From: a virus
Strand: one strand, 5' to 3'
Length of the DNA: 64,000 bases
Virus record (IMG/VR): IMGVR_UViG_3300025120_000017
Span: 62,001-126,000 of that record
A program made the position numbers and the translations under genes. The notes below the pieces were generated by a model that was not told the origin of the DNA, searched no databases, and worked only from the letters and a program-made list of their open reading frames with translations. This document shows positions 39,639-48,079 of this stretch, one piece after another (the stretch's first letter is position 1; each line of letters starts with the position of its first letter).

Positions 39639-39851
39639 TTATTTGTTTTCTTTTGTATAATTATATAAATTTTCCAAGGTTTTAATAGAATTATATGAAT
39701 GCATATAGTATCTTTCTAATCTATCTAAAAAACCTGTCATCATACCATTACCATATCGAACATAAGGCGACATAGTTTTTTCAAAAACGTCAAGATCCTC
39801 TTTAGGAACTCCGTTTATTGCTTGCTTTATTTGAGATTTTTGAGTTATCAT
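39639..39851 (-). CDS. Small helical protein between gp6- and gp7-like genes
   Basis: A 70-residue helical, charged protein (MITQKSQIKQAINGVPKEDL...). Its ATG overlaps the stop of the gp6-like gene by one base, and it ends 4 bp before the gp7-like gene. Such coupling inside a wedge operon suggests a small baseplate component or assembly factor. No named family recognised. Confidence 0.6.
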   Translation of the reverse strand: MITQKSQIKQAINGVPKEDLDVFEKTMSPYVRYGNGMMTGFLDRLERYYMHSYNSIKTLENLYNYTKENK

Positions 39852-41671
39852 TATGCTTTATATTTTTTAAATCTTGGCACGCTTTCTTTAAAAACAACAT
39901 TAACTGCTGATAGGTTTACAGGGTCAATACCATCTTTATATTCAATATTATTTCTATCATTAAATCCACCTCTTAATATAGGAAGTTCTTTATTTCCTAT
40001 AACAATATCTCCAAAGTCATCAATACCTATTTTTGGGTCAGTTCCAGTTGATAAGATAATCTTTTCAGTTTTAGTAACATCAGTTGATGTATTAATATCT
40101 AATGAATTTTGTGTATTGTTTCTCAATTGGTCTAATAAAATATCAGACGTTTGTTTATTATTATAAGAAACTTCTTTAAAGTAATAACCATTTCGTATTG
40201 CTTCTTCATTATCCCCAGATATAAATGTAATGCTTACACTATCAATTCCATCAATAGATTCAATGGTCTTAATTAAATCCGATTTAGGTATTTTATCTCT
40301 CCGCTCAAGATTAATAAAATATTCTCCTGCTTTATTAATGATTTCCTCTTCAATAGTTTCTTCTGATGTAATATCATCAAAAACTCGTAAATAAACATTC
40401 ATTGCATATTTTTTTACAATTGGGTCTATAATTTTCATTTCTGCTGAAATAAGTTGAGATCCGCTTTTATTGATTGCATTATACACAGCTTCTTTTGTCT
40501 GTGCATCAATATAGAAATTTTCTATGCTTGTACTAAAGTAATCTGAATTGCTTGATACCTTCTTTGTAATGTCTGGCATTAAGAAAACATATACAACATT
40601 ATCATCATCTAAATAATCATCACCATAAGTGTTAAATGCATAAATAAAAGAAAATTGATTATAACGTCTTAAAAAATGTATGTAATTATCAGGATTTGCA
40701 AGAACTAAAGATCTGCTGTTTTTATTCAGTAAGTATTTTGTTAAATCAGTGCTTTCACCATCAGATCCTAGAGTAATTTTTTTAGTTACTGTAATATCAA
40801 AAATTTCATTAAGATCCACTACTTGCCCAGTTCCTAAGGTAACTTCATCATCAAATTCAAAAACTATTTCATTTTGATTTATTCCTAGGTTTCCTGCAGT
40901 TCCTGCTGTTTTAACATAATTAACTTTAATAAGTTGGCCTACATCAGGAATAGTACCATAATCTTCATTACCAAAATAAATATCGACTTGGCCATTTATA
41001 CCAGTTTTTATAATAACGCCTTTATCATTCTTATTCATATCATAAATAGATTCAAAGTTCTTATACTCTTCGTCATTTACAAATATTTTTACATTATCAT
41101 TTTCAATTATTTCAGTTCTATTGTCAATAGTAAATGACTGTAGTGGAGTTCCATCTCCTTGAAAACTTTCATCTGCTAATTCACCTTGAATTATATTAAA
41201 GTAAACAAACTCTTGACTAGTTTTAGGGATTAATATATTATCAGATGGTAATTTTATTAAGTATGCTAAGCTATTGTTTTGGCACATTAGCTTTGTAAAA
41301 TTATTTATTTTAATATTAGTGCTATTTATTAAGTTAGATGCACCTGGTTTTATCTTAAGACTTAATTCACCTGTTGCACTAGTTCCTCTAGATGGATTAT
41401 GGCCAGTCAATCGAGCAAGCCCTCTTATACTCTTTTGTTTAAATGCAGTTTCTGTATTTCTTTCATTAAGAGCATCTTCTAAATAAAAATATTGTAATTT
41501 ATTAAGTTCTTCTATTACATGAAGTATTTGGCCGTAAGGACTGGTCTCAGAAAAATTCTGATCTCTTTTAGCGTACTCTTTAATTAGATAATTTTCTACT
41601 TGAGTCTTTAATGCCTGATCTTGAATTAACAATTTATCAAGCACCAATTTTATTTTATTTTTATCAGTCAT
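39851..41671 (-). CDS. 6: Baseplate wedge protein gp6-like (J family)
   Basis: A 606-residue protein, near T4 gp6 in length (660). The N-terminal block FSETSPYGQILHVIEELNKL ... YLEDALNERNTETAFKQKSI then RGLARLTGHNPSRGTSA is strongly characteristic of gp6/baseplate J-type wedge proteins. The central region is a beta-rich J-like domain, and the C-terminal part has the GDNEEAIRNGYYFKE loop. Gp6 dimers form the inner ring that joins wedges around the hub. It lies 14 bp after gp25, the conserved gp25-gp6 order. Confidence 0.88.
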   Translation of the reverse strand: MTDKNKIKLVLDKLLIQDQALKTQVENYLIKEYAKRDQNFSETSPYGQILHVIEELNKLQYFYLEDALNERNTETAFKQKSIRGLARLTGHNPSRGTSATGELSLKIKPGASNLINSTNIKINNFTKLMCQNNSLAYLIKLPSDNILIPKTSQEFVYFNIIQGELADESFQGDGTPLQSFTIDNRTEIIENDNVKIFVNDEEYKNFESIYDMNKNDKGVIIKTGINGQVDIYFGNEDYGTIPDVGQLIKVNYVKTAGTAGNLGINQNEIVFEFDDEVTLGTGQVVDLNEIFDITVTKKITLGSDGESTDLTKYLLNKNSRSLVLANPDNYIHFLRRYNQFSFIYAFNTYGDDYLDDDNVVYVFLMPDITKKVSSNSDYFSTSIENFYIDAQTKEAVYNAINKSGSQLISAEMKIIDPIVKKYAMNVYLRVFDDITSEETIEEEIINKAGEYFINLERRDKIPKSDLIKTIESIDGIDSVSITFISGDNEEAIRNGYYFKEVSYNNKQTSDILLDQLRNNTQNSLDINTSTDVTKTEKIILSTGTDPKIGIDDFGDIVIGNKELPILRGGFNDRNNIEYKDGIDPVNLSAVNVVFKESVPRFKKYKA

Positions 41672-41685
41672 TAATAATACTTTTT

Positions 41686-42051
41686 TTAATTAAGAACAAT
41701 TCTTACTAAATTATCATCCTCAACCGTGACATCAACCACAGCAGCTTCTTCATTTTCTATTTGATAAAAAGTAACAGAAACTTTCCAAGAAAAGTCACTA
41801 GCATATGATGAATACTCTTGAATTTGTTGGTTTATTCTAGATTTCATGTCACTTTCATTAGTACCTAACGTATGTAAATACATATCTAATGATGCGCCAA
41901 ACTTAGGACTACCAATAACAGCAGTCATAGGGCTTGTTAAGATTATTTCTATTTCTTGTAGAAATATTTCTAAGATATCATTTACTTCTATAGTGTTTGG
42001 GCTATAGTTCTTTGAATATGACTTTCTTAAGTAAATATCTGTTGCTCCCAC
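41686..42051 (-). CDS. 25: Baseplate wedge protein gp25-like
   Basis: A 121-residue protein of the gp25/GPW family (T4 gp25 has 132 residues). The conserved core VIGSPKFGASLDMYLHTLGT followed by a helix with NQQIQEY is visible at about 44-78, then two strands (FSWKVSVTFYQIE and AAVVDVTVEDDN). Gp25 binds the sheath-initiating ring of the baseplate. The start appears to be GTG at 42051, with a promoter-like element 10 nt upstream. It directly precedes the gp6-like gene. Confidence 0.88.
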   Translation of the reverse strand: MGATDIYLRKSYSKNYSPNTIEVNDILEIFLQEIEIILTSPMTAVIGSPKFGASLDMYLHTLGTNESDMKSRINQQIQEYSSYASDFSWKVSVTFYQIENEEAAVVDVTVEDDNLVRIVLN

Positions 42052-42094: not shown

Positions 42095-42475
42095 TCATGT
42101 AGTGTATGCAGAGATATATGGAATATCTTCTCTATAATGTGTTGATAATCTAGAATAACCATCAAGAACTTCATCATTAAAAATTACAATAGGATTATCC
42201 AATTCATCATCATGTGGAATTTCATCCCACTCTTCAGAATCTTCTCCATATCTATCTTCACCGCTTTTTATATATTCCTTAACATCTTTATCTTTTCTAA
42301 TTACATCTTTAACTTTAACTTTTTTTAATGTAAATGTCTTATTAGATTTAAGAATTTTTTCTATAAAAAAGTCAGGAACATCGCTACTATCTGGTGTGAT
42401 GTAAGTAATGTAATCAGCAATTTCTTGCGCTGATTTACTTTTAGCCTCATTTAAAAATTTCTTATAACTTTTCAT
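42095..42475 (-). CDS. Capsid-targeting-tagged protein with ParB-like C-terminus
   Basis: A 126-residue protein beginning MKSYKKFLNEAKSKSAQE, the clearest match in the window to a capsid-targeting sequence, with an LNE|A site at 8-10. The remainder resembles a ParB/sulfiredoxin-type fold: FTLKKVKVKDVIRKD, then NPIVIFNDEVLDGYSRLSTHYR near 93-114, where DGYSR is close to the usual DGxHR signature. ParB-like domains bind nucleotides, cut DNA or act as adaptors; which applies is unknown. It lies between two structural genes, with a 1-bp overlap upstream. A packaged DNA- or nucleotide-binding effector is an inference. Confidence 0.55.
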   Translation of the reverse strand: MKSYKKFLNEAKSKSAQEIADYITYITPDSSDVPDFFIEKILKSNKTFTLKKVKVKDVIRKDKDVKEYIKSGEDRYGEDSEEWDEIPHDDELDNPIVIFNDEVLDGYSRLSTHYREDIPYISAYTT

Positions 42476-43242
42476 TATTGTCCGTTTGTTGTAAAGAAAA
42501 AACTAGGTGAGCTTAATCCTTTAATTTCTTCTTCTACTTTTTCAATCATAGTTACACCATTATCAAACCATTTAGAATAATCAATTTGTACATTTCCAGG
42601 AAGTTCCATTTGAAATGCTCCTAATATGTTTCCTAATTGTTTATAGGATTCTCCTAAAACATAATTATAAAATAGGTCTAGTCCATATAATGCTTCATAA
42701 GGAACTTTAATCATTACATCAAGTATAAGATCTGGGCAATTCTTAACGTCACCTTTTATAAATAGCCTATTATTTAATCGGTTGTATTCATATGTAAGTG
42801 GGTGTTTAGTAATATGATACATTAGATCATCCCAAGATGCATAAACCACATATGCAAGAACTGCATCACTATACATACCATCTTCAACAGCACCACCGCC
42901 ACCTAAGCCATAATTACCATAAACAAATTTATTTAAACTAAAGTCACTTGTTAAATCTGATGTTTTTGTAAACTGATTATTTTTAGTAAGACCATTAACT
43001 GAATATACGCATGATGGTAATGTAACTCCTCTATTCATTTTAAACAATGAATCTTTCATATACTGCTCGGATGGAATTAAAATATAAACATTATCAACAG
43101 CATCTTCATAATTTCTATAAAACCATTCAGCTGTATATTTTGATATTCTATCTATTTCAGTTAATGGAATTTTAAAAGGTATATTACATGATGCTGTTAG
43201 TGCATTTATAATATCTTGATTAAATTCTTCCTTACTTCTCAT
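42475..43242 (-). CDS. Virion structural protein, baseplate/neck-like
   Basis: A 255-residue protein with an N-terminal helical region (SKEEFNQDIINALTASCNIP), a Gly-rich loop (VYGNYGLGGGGAVEDG near 109-124) and a C-terminal helical part with LDLFYNYVLGESYKQLGNIL. No signal, membrane or catalytic motif. It lies between the amidoligase-like gene and the ParB-like gene in the wedge cluster. The C-terminal pattern looks like a conserved connector or neck component, but I cannot name the family. Confidence 0.55.
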   Translation of the reverse strand: MRSKEEFNQDIINALTASCNIPFKIPLTEIDRISKYTAEWFYRNYEDAVDNVYILIPSEQYMKDSLFKMNRGVTLPSCVYSVNGLTKNNQFTKTSDLTSDFSLNKFVYGNYGLGGGGAVEDGMYSDAVLAYVVYASWDDLMYHITKHPLTYEYNRLNNRLFIKGDVKNCPDLILDVMIKVPYEALYGLDLFYNYVLGESYKQLGNILGAFQMELPGNVQIDYSKWFDNGVTMIEKVEEEIKGLSSPSFFFTTNGQ

Positions 43243-43247
43243 ATTTA

Positions 43248-44552
43248 TTAATTATTTTGTGCTTCTTCTGCGTCTATTACCTCTACAGAATCATCTATCT
43301 CAGTATCTACATATTTACCTTCTCTAAAAATAGTGTTACCTTTAATTTGCATTCGGTCTAATGTAATAAATTTTCCATTTATATATCCATTTATGACTTT
43401 ACCGCTTTCATGGTGACCATCCTTAAGTCTAGTCTTCTTTAAATCGCATGAAATTGTATCAGTGTTTGTTAAGTCACATTTACTTGTTTTACTATCTTGT
43501 AATATTGCATTATCTATCACGCATTGTATAAACCTACAGTTATGAAAAATTACCCTATGTGAATCTATCACAGTATCCTTAAAACTAATATCAACAAACT
43601 CAAGCAATGATTCGTCTGAGTCATAATTTATTTTTCCTGCCATGCCATAAGGAATGTTTTCCATCTGTTGCATTAGTGGAAAAAATACTTGTATTATTTT
43701 ATGGAACTGTGATTTAACTGCTTCAGAATTATCATTACCATCAACAGATAACTTAAGTTTTTTAAATATGTTCTTAAAATTAAAATAATCTTTACTTGCT
43801 AAAAAAAGTTTATGCTTTTTATCTACTATAGATTTAAGAATCTTATTATCTTCTTTATCATATGGTTTATTATATGATAAAATTAATGAATCAATAAAAT
43901 AGTCCATTAACTCAATAGTTTCATCAGATCTAATTGCATATTTAGGTCCTCCTAAATATCTAAATTCTAAATAACCTTTTGATAATTTAGTAAAGTTTAT
44001 TCCATAGTACTTATTACTTGGAAATACATAATTTGTTTTATTAAATGTTAAATTATCAATGGCATAACTGCCATGTCTAGGGAAAATAGATTTAATGGTT
44101 TTGGCATATATATTATTTTTTCTATCTGGAAAATATTTATAAACCAAATCCTCATCAAAATCAATAATATATTTAAGAATGTCAATGTTTTGAATATACC
44201 TACCTTCTATATTAATGTTAATATGTATACCACATCTTTCATTAAGTGATATTTTTTTATCTTCTCTTATAAACTTAAGCATGTTTAGTAAGACAATTCT
44301 TGCTAATGGATATGATATAGGCCCAGTAACAACCTCAACTAGGCTTACGCCTCCTGAAAAATCTGGCTCCATTTTCCAATGGTCATTTGTTGGTATAAAG
44401 TCAGAATGATGTTCTTTTTCTAATTTAACATCAACTTTAAATATTTTTTTGATTTTTTTCTTAATTTCTCCTAAGTTATATTTAGGATCTCTTAAAAATT
44501 CAAACTCAAACCCTATTTGTGACTTAGTTTGTTTAATTTCGTTAGGAGTCAT
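43248..44552 (-). CDS. Putative amidoligase (glutamine synthetase-like fold) with pentapeptide-like C-terminus
   Basis: A 434-residue protein. The N-terminal 220 residues carry the motif set of the phage/bacterial amidoligase family: GFEFEF at 14-19, WKMEPD at 59-64, LVEVVTGP at 71-78, CGIHININ at 107-114 and YLEFRYLGGP at 194-203. Such enzymes use a glutamine-synthetase-type ATP site to join a carboxyl to an amine, making peptide-like or protein-modifying bonds. Residues about 315-410 form short repeated strands (ISFKDTVIDSHRVIFHNCRF...) like a pentapeptide or beta-helix stack. An enzyme of this type inside a baseplate cluster is unusual. Substrate unknown; modification of a virion protein or of host peptidoglycan are possibilities. 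It follows a terminator and a promoter-like element. Confidence 0.68.
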   Translation of the reverse strand: MTPNEIKQTKSQIGFEFEFLRDPKYNLGEIKKKIKKIFKVDVKLEKEHHSDFIPTNDHWKMEPDFSGGVSLVEVVTGPISYPLARIVLLNMLKFIREDKKISLNERCGIHININIEGRYIQNIDILKYIIDFDEDLVYKYFPDRKNNIYAKTIKSIFPRHGSYAIDNLTFNKTNYVFPSNKYYGINFTKLSKGYLEFRYLGGPKYAIRSDETIELMDYFIDSLILSYNKPYDKEDNKILKSIVDKKHKLFLASKDYFNFKNIFKKLKLSVDGNDNSEAVKSQFHKIIQVFFPLMQQMENIPYGMAGKINYDSDESLLEFVDISFKDTVIDSHRVIFHNCRFIQCVIDNAILQDSKTSKCDLTNTDTISCDLKKTRLKDGHHESGKVINGYINGKFITLDRMQIKGNTIFREGKYVDTEIDDSVEVIDAEEAQNN

Positions 44553-44645: not shown

Positions 44646-45770
44646 TTAAACAAATGATAAATCATATTTTCCATTATTAATGTTTATGATTTTGCATTCT
44701 ACTTTATCATTACGTTCTACCTCAACATTTTTCATTTTTGATATATGTACTAGACCACTTGTATTTTTATCAAATTTAACAAATGCACCGTATGAAGTAA
44801 GTTTAGTTACTCTACCTTTTACTATTTCGTTTTTCTTATATTTAACTTCCTTTAATGCTGTTAAATCCACTTCAAATCTTGATAGGATAATTCTCTTAGG
44901 ATTAATTATTTCTTTTAAGAAAAATTCAATCTCTACACCAGGCTTAACCTGACTATTGTCAAATAATTCCTTAAGGCCTTCATCAAATTCATCTTTATGA
45001 ATTAACCCTGTGAGAACTTCATTAAACTCAACAAATATACCAAAATGCGTAGTATCAGTTACTTTTCCAGTATACTTATCACCTACCACAAGATCTTGTA
45101 ATTTTATAGGAATTAAAGTTTTTAAATATTCTCGATGAGATACGATAAGAGTGTTTTTATACTTAGAATAACTATTATTATTTTTAACAGTCATTACTTT
45201 AATGGTTTCTCCAACAAGATCATTAAAATCAACTAATCTGTTTATTCCACCTAAGCTACCTGGCATAAATACATCAAGACCTAGAATATCAAGGTCATAT
45301 CCATTATTTGATAGCCTTAATACCTTAGCATCATATACTTTCTTAGAATCCCAATCTGTCATATCATCATATAGCTCTTTCCTGATCTTTCCAGTAATAG
45401 ATGCTTTTAAATACTCAGAACTTTCTTGATCTTGAGTGATAATTACTTCAATTTCCTGACCAATAGAAAAGTCGCTTGGATTTAGTTTATCCTTATCAAC
45501 AGACACGTATGCAAGTTCTCTATGCCCAACATCTAAAGATATTTCACCCTCAGTAATAGAAACAATTCTTCCTAGAACTACTTCGCCAGTGCATAATGAA
45601 TATTTTTTAACAGGAGTTACTCCATTAAAATAGTCTTCATATGATTTTGCTAAATCTTTTGCATAAGGCTCTGTTGATAGAATTTTTAAGCCTGATTTTG
45701 TTTGAAATGGTTGTTCAGCCGTGAACACGGAAATGTTTTTAGGATCCCCATAAACTTCTGTAGAGTTCAT
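44646..45770 (-). CDS. Four-S1-domain RNA-binding protein, ribosomal protein S1-like
   Basis: A 374-residue protein built of four OB-fold S1 repeats near residues 60-125, 142-213, 228-298 and 312-374. The last two are the most typical (GKVTDTTHFGIFVEFNEVLTGLIH and KGRVTKLTSYGAFVKFDKNTSGLVHIS). The first 55 residues are an unrelated leader. Bacterial S1 has six repeats and brings mRNA to the 30S subunit; four-repeat forms are also known. A phage copy could favour phage mRNAs, act in transcription or antitermination, or bind phage RNA. It is placed between a structural gene and a strong terminator. RNA binding is well supported; the target is not. Confidence 0.85.
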   Translation of the reverse strand: MNSTEVYGDPKNISVFTAEQPFQTKSGLKILSTEPYAKDLAKSYEDYFNGVTPVKKYSLCTGEVVLGRIVSITEGEISLDVGHRELAYVSVDKDKLNPSDFSIGQEIEVIITQDQESSEYLKASITGKIRKELYDDMTDWDSKKVYDAKVLRLSNNGYDLDILGLDVFMPGSLGGINRLVDFNDLVGETIKVMTVKNNNSYSKYKNTLIVSHREYLKTLIPIKLQDLVVGDKYTGKVTDTTHFGIFVEFNEVLTGLIHKDEFDEGLKELFDNSQVKPGVEIEFFLKEIINPKRIILSRFEVDLTALKEVKYKKNEIVKGRVTKLTSYGAFVKFDKNTSGLVHISKMKNVEVERNDKVECKIININNGKYDLSFV

Positions 45771-46325: not shown

Positions 46326-47309
46326 TTATTTAAGTTTAGTTAATAAATCAGACCATAAATCAACTCTTGAAATATCAGGAAAGTTATATCCTGATTTTTT
46401 TCCTCTCATATCTTCAACACCGACTTCTTTTTCAAGATGCTTTATAACCATTTTAGTAATATCTTTATCGTTAAAACGTATAATAGGCTTTTCCATTATA
46501 GGTGAATAAGGACCTCCATACATATTATATTGACCTTCTTGAATAGCAAATATTTCTTTACCAAATTTTGTTTTACCTTTTACTTTAAAAGTGTTGCTGC
46601 TCCACTCTATATAGCCTTCTAATAGATCCAACTCAGCAGCAATTTGACTAGCTGCATCCTCTTCACTACTGTTATATTCTGCCCAAAGGGATCTATCAAT
46701 ATCATACTCTACGTTAATCTCTGCAGGAATCATTATTTTATCTCTTAAAACTCCTTCATTAACTGATTCCATTTTACCAGATGATAGGTCTTTAAGATCT
46801 TTATTAGCATTATCTATGTTTTTACTTTCTCTTTTGAATATTCCAATAAATTTCTTAACAACACTTTTTAAACCTTGTATCATTTTAGAAAGAATATTTT
46901 CATCGATACTTTCAGATTCATTTGTTCCTATTTCAAAAGAATGTCCTATATTGGTTATCTTTTTAGAAGCTGCTAAAGATTCTTCTAATATGTTTCTTGT
47001 TGCTGAATTAACTTTACCTAAAGCCATTTCAAACGCATTCTTATACGAAGCTGAACTTCTCTCATGTGCAAATCTTTTAATCTTTATCAAATAATCATCA
47101 GTTTCTGCTAGCTTTTCACCAGTTTCCTGCATTGAATCCAATAAAGGTGTTATTTGCTTACCATATTCACCAAATTGTTTTTTAGCTTCTTTAAGCTTTG
47201 CTGATAGTTGATTAATCTCTTCTTGTAAAAGATAAAAATCATCCATTGATGCAACAATTGAAGGGTCTTCTATTTTAGATTCTTTTATAAAATTTCGTAA
47301 ACTTTTCAT
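46326..47309 (-). CDS. Capsid-targeting-tagged protein in the baseplate cluster
   Basis: A 327-residue protein starting MKSLRNFIKESKIEDPS, with an IKE site at 8-10 as in the head-protein candidates. Residues 20-110 form a long coiled coil (LQEEINQLSAKLKEAKKQFG...). Near 134-165 there is SIDE|NILSKMIQGLKSVVKKFIGIFKRE, a basic amphipathic helix just after another Glu site, and further on ESVNE|GVLRDK near 186-195. The C-terminal 130 residues are alpha/beta. The possible processing sites fit cleavage by a prohead protease, with release of a cationic peptide. Its place between the spike and structural genes is odd for a head protein. Function unknown. Confidence 0.55.
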   Translation of the reverse strand: MKSLRNFIKESKIEDPSIVASMDDFYLLQEEINQLSAKLKEAKKQFGEYGKQITPLLDSMQETGEKLAETDDYLIKIKRFAHERSSASYKNAFEMALGKVNSATRNILEESLAASKKITNIGHSFEIGTNESESIDENILSKMIQGLKSVVKKFIGIFKRESKNIDNANKDLKDLSSGKMESVNEGVLRDKIMIPAEINVEYDIDRSLWAEYNSSEEDAASQIAAELDLLEGYIEWSSNTFKVKGKTKFGKEIFAIQEGQYNMYGGPYSPIMEKPIIRFNDKDITKMVIKHLEKEVGVEDMRGKKSGYNFPDISRVDLWSDLLTKLK

Positions 47310-47321
47310 TTTAACTCATTT

Positions 47322-47336
47322 CTTTTTATATTTAAT
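47322..47336 (-). promoter_or_regulatory. Candidate late-promoter element
   Basis: An exact minus-strand ATTAAATATAAAAAG, 12 nt upstream of the ATG at 47309, starting within the TGA stop of the spike gene. Confidence 0.5.
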
Positions 47337-48079
47337 CACTCAGGATCAATCGTAACCAATTTACTTTTAAAGTTTACAAAATCTGTTTTAAATTTGCTTG
47401 CTAATGCGGCCCAATTAGGCGATGAACCTATTGGACCACTAGGTCCTGTGGGTGTTGGTATTGCTGATATCTTAGCCAATTCAGTTATAAATGAATTAAG
47501 TAACTCTTCAAGAGTATCTCCTAATACTGCAGGCTCTGCAGATATATCTTCAGAACCAATGCTAATGCCATTATCGCTAATATGAATAGATTTTTGCGTC
47601 TTTCCATTAGATAATAAAATACTTTCATCTTCATTTTTAATTTGAATATATGTTAAGTTTTTTCTTATTATCAATCCTTGAGTTTCTGTATAAAAAATTT
47701 CAAGAGTCCTTTCTTCTCCTGGGGTACCTTCACCATCTTCTCCTAGTTTTTTATCATACATTAATGACCATACTTTAGGATAATCTTCACCGTATTCCGC
47801 TAAGAGGTCTTCAGAGTTTTTTATAGTTGTAAAATAAAATGGAACATAGTCATCATCATTCTCAAAAAACGTATTAATTATATCACCTACTTTAGGTATT
47901 ATACAAGTTCCTGTGCTTAGTTGATTATATGGAATAGCCCAAGGAATTACGCCCTCTTCAAGCTCATCATATTTAGAAAAGATTTTAATTTTAACTCTAC
48001 CTAATTGAAGCGGGTCATCTGTTCTAATAACTTCTCCAATCCAAATAGTACCAACAAGGACATCTTTAAAATACTTCAT
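47336..48079 (-). CDS. Gp5-like baseplate central spike protein, no lysozyme domain
   Basis: A 247-residue protein. The N-terminal OB-fold block GTIWIGEVIRTDDPLQLGRVKIKIF ... IPWAIPYNQLSTGTCIIPKVGDII is typical of gp5/VgrG-type spikes. Residues 125-170 have the short beta repeats of the spike needle (LIIRKNLTYIQIKNEDESIL). The C-terminus is a helical segment after a Pro/Gly-rich linker. T4 gp5 also carries a lysozyme domain between these parts; it is absent here, so local peptidoglycan digestion must come from elsewhere. It overlaps the upstream tube-like gene by 1 bp. Confidence 0.75.
   Translation of the reverse strand: MKYFKDVLVGTIWIGEVIRTDDPLQLGRVKIKIFSKYDELEEGVIPWAIPYNQLSTGTCIIPKVGDIINTFFENDDDYVPFYFTTIKNSEDLLAEYGEDYPKVWSLMYDKKLGEDGEGTPGEERTLEIFYTETQGLIIRKNLTYIQIKNEDESILLSNGKTQKSIHISDNGISIGSEDISAEPAVLGDTLEELLNSFITELAKISAIPTPTGPSGPIGSSPNWAALASKFKTDFVNFKSKLVTIDPE

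Follow-up and report, generated by a model that had tools for sequence, protein, structure and literature searches.

Phage amidoligases figure in the open-licence literature only as accessory or peptidoglycan-modifying genes. Those of the phiEco32/RIO-1 peptidoglycan-modification cassette (PMC5498523) belong to the same superfamily of amide-forming enzymes as the protein described here; such cassettes with phage amidoligases are also reported in PMC3890496 and PMC10580990, and UFV-P2 carries its cassette genes among the early genes (PMC3890496). The corresponding sequence families are Amidoligase_2 (PF12224), phrog_2443 and phrog_7469. Agrobacterium phage Atu_ph07 gp196, encoded two genes from the portal gene, and Salicola phage SCTP-2 gp125 each contain an amidoligase domain, and unannotated homologs are found in the huge phages LR756500-LR756504 and LR745206. 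Finally, the DUF2169-pentapeptide fusions of type VI secretion spike clusters (PMC11883445) have a C-terminal pentapeptide domain and are encoded with a contractile-spike module; their N-terminal domain is unrelated to amidoligases, and the likeness is one of analogy only.

The gene described here lies in the window, a 64,000-nucleotide stretch of viral record IMGVR_UViG_3300025120_000017. Its product shares with the PF12224 and PHROG amidoligases a sequence-family match above cut-off, the fold, and the ExE, H and ExR motifs. The window family differs from them in its HxN motif 3, C-terminal β-helix, fixed locus in a tail operon and repeated loss of catalytic residues. The huge-phage homologs are full-length (30-34% identity over 85-94% of the protein), but more divergent in sequence, and their gene has often moved away from that for the gp6-like baseplate wedge protein. 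Atu_ph07 gp196 and SCTP-2 gp125 align over the amidoligase domain with its later motifs (hhalign E = 1.7e-12 and 3.4e-11), but leave the β-helix unmatched and are not encoded in a baseplate operon. We found no paper in the open-licence full-text literature that links an amidoligase to a baseplate operon. While the enzyme superfamily is already known from phages, the constant tail-operon place, the β-helix fusion and the repeated catalytic loss appear to be undescribed. We note that SCTP-2 (L088:7924-11684) encodes two large proteins in tandem, both of which are matched by the amidoligase profile (E = 1e-14 and 9e-13), with no Pfam match for either.

Fold and motifs of the window protein

The open reading frame occupies exactly 43248..44552 on the minus strand, starts with ATG and encodes 434 residues (Table 1). 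Residues 12-160 match PF12224 with E = 1.6e-8, scoring 35.2 bits where the curated cut-off is 22, and two PHROGs families annotated as "amidoligase enzyme" are matched with E values of 2.4e-8 and 5.2e-5. The C-terminus matches Pentapeptide_4 (E = 8.7e-6) below its curated cut-off; for the pentapeptide families PF00805/PF13599, the scores are 26.2 bits against a cut-off of 38 and 12.6 against 20.2. Weak profile matches connect the β-helix to the solved pentapeptide proteins 2xt2 and 2xt4. The defence-system library contains no match to the protein.

The AlphaFold2 model, generated with 27 family members, has a pLDDT of 89.8 and a pTM of 0.83. It predicts a mixed α/β enzyme domain, a helical linker and then a β-helix, in which residues 306-415 form the regular stack of short strands expected of pentapeptide-repeat proteins. 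Foldseek identifies glutamine synthetases and glutathione-synthesis enzymes among PDB entries (best E = 2.4e-4, probability 1.00, TM ~0.3). This places the enzyme domain in the glutamine synthetase/glutamate-cysteine ligase fold, but because TM values to solved structures are low, we claim superfamily membership and not close kinship. Direct hhalign comparison with the single E. coli YbdK and GlnA sequences gave no match, so the relationship to these enzymes is one of fold. In the viral library, Foldseek finds many named or putative phage amidoligases, with E values down to 2.2e-11 and a best full-length TM of 0.87. The preliminary description had read the gene as a full set of amidoligase motifs followed by a pentapeptide-like stack. 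The ExE, His and ExR active-site motifs are indeed all present, and the predicted structure confirms an amidoligase-fold protein fused to a pentapeptide-type β-helix. We refer to E16, E18, E73, H110, E196 and R198 as catalytic, an assignment that we take from the motifs of the glutamine-synthetase-like amidoligase family and not from a solved structure.

Table 1. Features of the amidoligase gene and its neighborhood (window coordinates)
Feature	Position	Strand	Basis
Whole gene, amidoligase-fold domain and β-helix, 434 aa	43248..44552	-	ORF, Pfam, AlphaFold2 model
Enzyme domain, residues ~10-230, glutamine-synthetase-like	43863..44525	-	PF12224 12-160; conserved motifs up to 205; Foldseek
Motif 1, G14-F-E16-F-E18-F-L, putative metal-binding ExE, first strand	44493..44513	-	Invariant in 30/30 enzyme-selected relatives having the region
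Motif 2, V72-E73-V-V-T76-G77-P	44319..44339	-	E73: 100% of intact set, 0% of degenerate set
Motif 3, G108-I-H110-I-N112-I-N (HxN)	44211..44231	-	H110: 96% of intact set, 0% of degenerate set
Motif 4, K181-Y-Y-G-I-N186	43995..44012	-	Invariant in enzyme-selected set; relaxed in degenerate orthologs
Motif 5, L195-E196-F-R198-Y-L-G-G202	43947..43970	-	Intact vs degenerate: E196 100% vs 9%, R198 100% vs 45%
Helical linker, residues 231-305	43638..43862	-	Model secondary structure
C-terminal β-helix, residues 306-415; caps I-N309-Y-D and G405..F-R410-E-G412	43308..43637	-	Model
S1-domain (RNA-binding) protein, upstream neighbor	44646..45770	-	Pfam S1 E = 9e-21; alongside amidoligase in 78/85 loci
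Head-tail adaptor-like protein, start 5 nt past amidoligase gene	42475..43242	-	phrog_211 E = 3e-6; 82/85 loci
gp25-like baseplate wedge protein	41686..42051	-	PHROGs, weak (0.013); 80/85 loci
gp6-like baseplate wedge protein, independent anchor and tree	39851..41671	-	phrog_219 E = 6.7e-29; 75/85 loci
Baseplate protein	47336-48079		PHROGs 3.6e-26

Position in the tail operon

At least 446 viral contig stretches encode relatives of the amidoligase, 80 of which were kept; the search of cellular genomes returned just two phage-like contigs. Across the 85 loci, the genes repeatedly follow the order S1 protein, amidoligase, adaptor, gp25, gp6. The baseplate setting proposed earlier is borne out in the window by the gp6-like protein, a further baseplate protein and the adaptor, with a weak match for the gp25-like protein (Table 1). 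To escape selection on the enzyme, gp6 was chosen as the search anchor; a single-protein gp6 scan gave no match. The amidoligase gene is present on 74 of the 79 newly fetched gp6-anchored contigs. Where at least 3.5 kb lie upstream of gp6 (60 contigs), the S1, amidoligase, adaptor and gp25 genes are all found there in 59; the sole exception, L105, carries the amidoligase at another place on that contig. The amidoligase stop codon precedes the adaptor start by a median of 3 nt, and in 154 of 155 loci the gap does not exceed 20 nt. Pairwise identities of the amidoligase track those of gp6 (Spearman 0.944). Together with the fixed operon place, this sequence comparison marks the gene as a core member of the late module that is passed on vertically. 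The link to the baseplate is not absolute: in L180 and in the largest phages (LR7565xx, 636-735 kb), where the neighborhood is broken up, the amidoligase gene and gp6 are not adjacent. The L180 relative (91-1431), on a small MAG contig, adjoins a clamp-loader-like ATPase gene and not tail genes.

The company of the S1 gene in 78 of the 85 loci could mean that the two proteins jointly alter host translation, for instance through residues added to a ribosomal protein. Proposals that phage S1 proteins and peptide ligases redirect translation in the host, or modify its proteins, have been published (PMC7162821, PMC7824862). We regard such a role as highly unlikely. The gap between the amidoligase and S1 genes has a median of 51 nt, as opposed to 3 nt for the adaptor, the two genes lie far apart in several huge phages, and S1 residues are unchanged where catalysis is lost. 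The window S1 protein contains several S1 RNA-binding domains. An S1 relative also occurs in the Prevotella Lak phages, where it is placed differently relative to gp6, and in L179 (919-1560) an ORF that by eye resembles a GIY-YIG homing endonuclease apparently interrupts the stretch from the S1 region to the amidoligase.

The enzyme might instead modify host peptidoglycan or γ-glutamyl metabolites to exclude other phages, in the manner of the phiEco32-type cassette, its place among late genes serving timing only; the described cassettes are a precedent for phage amidoligases in such a setting (PMC5498523, PMC3890496, PMC10580990). Partner genes of the cassette were not found for the window gene, and its genome location is different. 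GATase_6 and ATP-grasp_4 were not detected in the window record and nine related ones, although their controls were; the absence of a glutamine amidotransferase and an ATP-grasp ligase from the window record is to be read with the record possibly incomplete. COOH-NH2_lig likewise had no match in these records, with its control silent too, and GGACT was seen only in three huge phages. The missing partners and the location in a tail operon, whereas the UFV-P2 cassette genes sit with early genes (PMC3890496), weaken this explanation, which we consider improbable.

Loss of catalytic residues in orthologs

In the enzyme-selected set, every motif residue is invariant or nearly so. This apparent invariance of the active site is a sampling artifact, since the search itself selected for the motifs KYYG[IV]N and NxYxKSxK, and it was overturned by the gp6-anchored sample. 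The motifs could be read in 66 gp6-anchored contigs: 54 carry E16, E18, E73, H110, E196 and R198 without exception, and 12 have lost several of the six. Well-supported branches of the gp6 tree force at least three changes of catalytic state; we trust this tree over that of the amidoligase, which draws long branches together. The degenerate pair L165/L168 branches within an intact clade, and its sister L068, which is intact, is colinear with it over the whole protein. Since the distant phage amidoligases Atu_ph07 gp196 and SCTP-2 gp125 share the motifs, the intact state is ancestral and the degenerate copies represent losses.

Degenerate copies retain the full length, the β-helix and the predicted fold, as well as the gene order in 12 of 12 checked, and drop below PF12224 detection. 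E16 is gone in most of the 11 degenerate orthologs compared; the catalytic motifs are lost or relaxed along with H49, K60, E62, D64, K181, Y182 and R410. Residues kept in both the intact and degenerate sets include E134, Y199, G201, G202, Y205, D271, N309, Y310, G405 and G412. The relaxation of R410, which belongs to a β-helix cap, suggests that the cap may serve the active site. Motif 3 of the L179 amidoligase reads VQVN and not IHxN.

Enzyme-domain dN/dS in the family is mostly 0.01-0.1. The one testable degenerate pair, L103/L104, has a dN of 0.035 and a dS of 0.71 over the enzyme region (dN/dS ~0.05), a sign that purifying selection continues there, the others being too diverged for a firm estimate. 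No second amidoligase, intact or otherwise, was found on the degenerate contigs, which are fragments, and an intact copy may lie elsewhere in these genomes. Because the gene persists in at least three lineages that lack its catalytic residues, catalysis cannot explain its universal retention. The window copy is probably still an active enzyme whose activity is dispensable in the family. Against this reading, a different substrate or activity might serve the degenerate lineages. The preliminary description had named loss of active-site residues in close homologs as one observation that would refute it. That loss is seen in at least three lineages of syntenic orthologs, and not in the window copy or most of the family; the amidoligase fold, the motifs, the β-helix and the conserved place among tail genes stand.

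These losses also bear on the idea of an active amidoligase that serves solely to modify or cross-link some virion protein, be it the adaptor, gp25, gp6 or another, as the particle assembles. The motif set, complete in the window copy and most relatives, the low enzyme-domain dN/dS, the fixed place in a structural operon with a near-zero gap to the adaptor gene, and the conserved adaptor C-terminal tail, including E239 and K241, would all fit. We nevertheless find it unlikely, as the gene outlives its catalytic residues in at least three lineages and a neighbor-column comparison found no conserved adaptor, S1 or gp25 residue that is lost along with them. Three gp6 columns do differ, but only in one of three degenerate lineages. 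Across the four neighboring proteins, none of the conserved residues disappears consistently with catalysis, and the comparison singles out no substrate. The adaptor tail was considered as a candidate and is not supported, its conserved columns being equally conserved where catalysis is lost. This C-terminal tail of the adaptor (42475-43242, minus strand) is acidic-aromatic, EEIKGDEGVDYFFT, in most relatives and has diverged to EEIKGLSSPSFFFTTNGQ in the window.

Proposed role and host

With moderate confidence, we read the protein as a core component of the tail/neck-building module, or as an assembly factor within it, in a large phage group; it joins a glutamine-synthetase-fold amidoligase domain to a β-helix. 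A function independent of catalysis would keep the gene everywhere. The simplest candidate is a structural or chaperone role together with the adaptor or baseplate, in which the β-helix would be the docking part. Its tight coupling with the adaptor gene suggests that the site of action is the neck or tail. In the window phage and most relatives, the domain probably still forms an amide bond on some acceptor, using ATP and a metal. On the simplest account, the protein would have a dual role, with a universal assembly or structural function and an amide-forming activity in most lineages, the window phage included. It is possible, though rather doubtful, that an ATP-dependent amidoligase is built into the forming tail, or acts on it, and makes new amide bonds on a virion protein, and that in several lineages the enzyme has become a structural part and nothing more.

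The amidoligase is a fixed tail-operon part in hundreds of uncultured phages, and the largest phages known carry full-length relatives. Because this fixed part has repeatedly lost its catalytic residues and yet been retained, the family offers a natural experiment on an enzyme becoming a structural component. Intact and degenerate versions can be compared directly, which makes the questions of chemistry and of assembly separable.

We found no cultured relative with an amidoligase gene in the same operon place, and no ortholog in the Lak, PTm1, PAU and MaF61 phages, though gp6 is common to them. The named phages among gp6 relatives mostly infect Bacteroidota (Prevotella for Lak, Tenacibaculum, Flavobacterium and Chryseobacterium), and huge phages above 634 kb have been assigned to Bacteroidetes (PMC7162821). 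On these grounds, the host of the window phage is probably a member of the Bacteroidota.

Finally, small proteins are encoded near the amidoligase, many with a start similar to MKYIKEYEEFLxE. They lie at 42095-42475 and 46326-47309 (minus strand) in the window, at L002:14247-19342 and at L179:3964-4952, and LR756500 has a run of them. Their start resembles the T4 capsid-targeting leader of internal head proteins, and we note the likeness as a lead.
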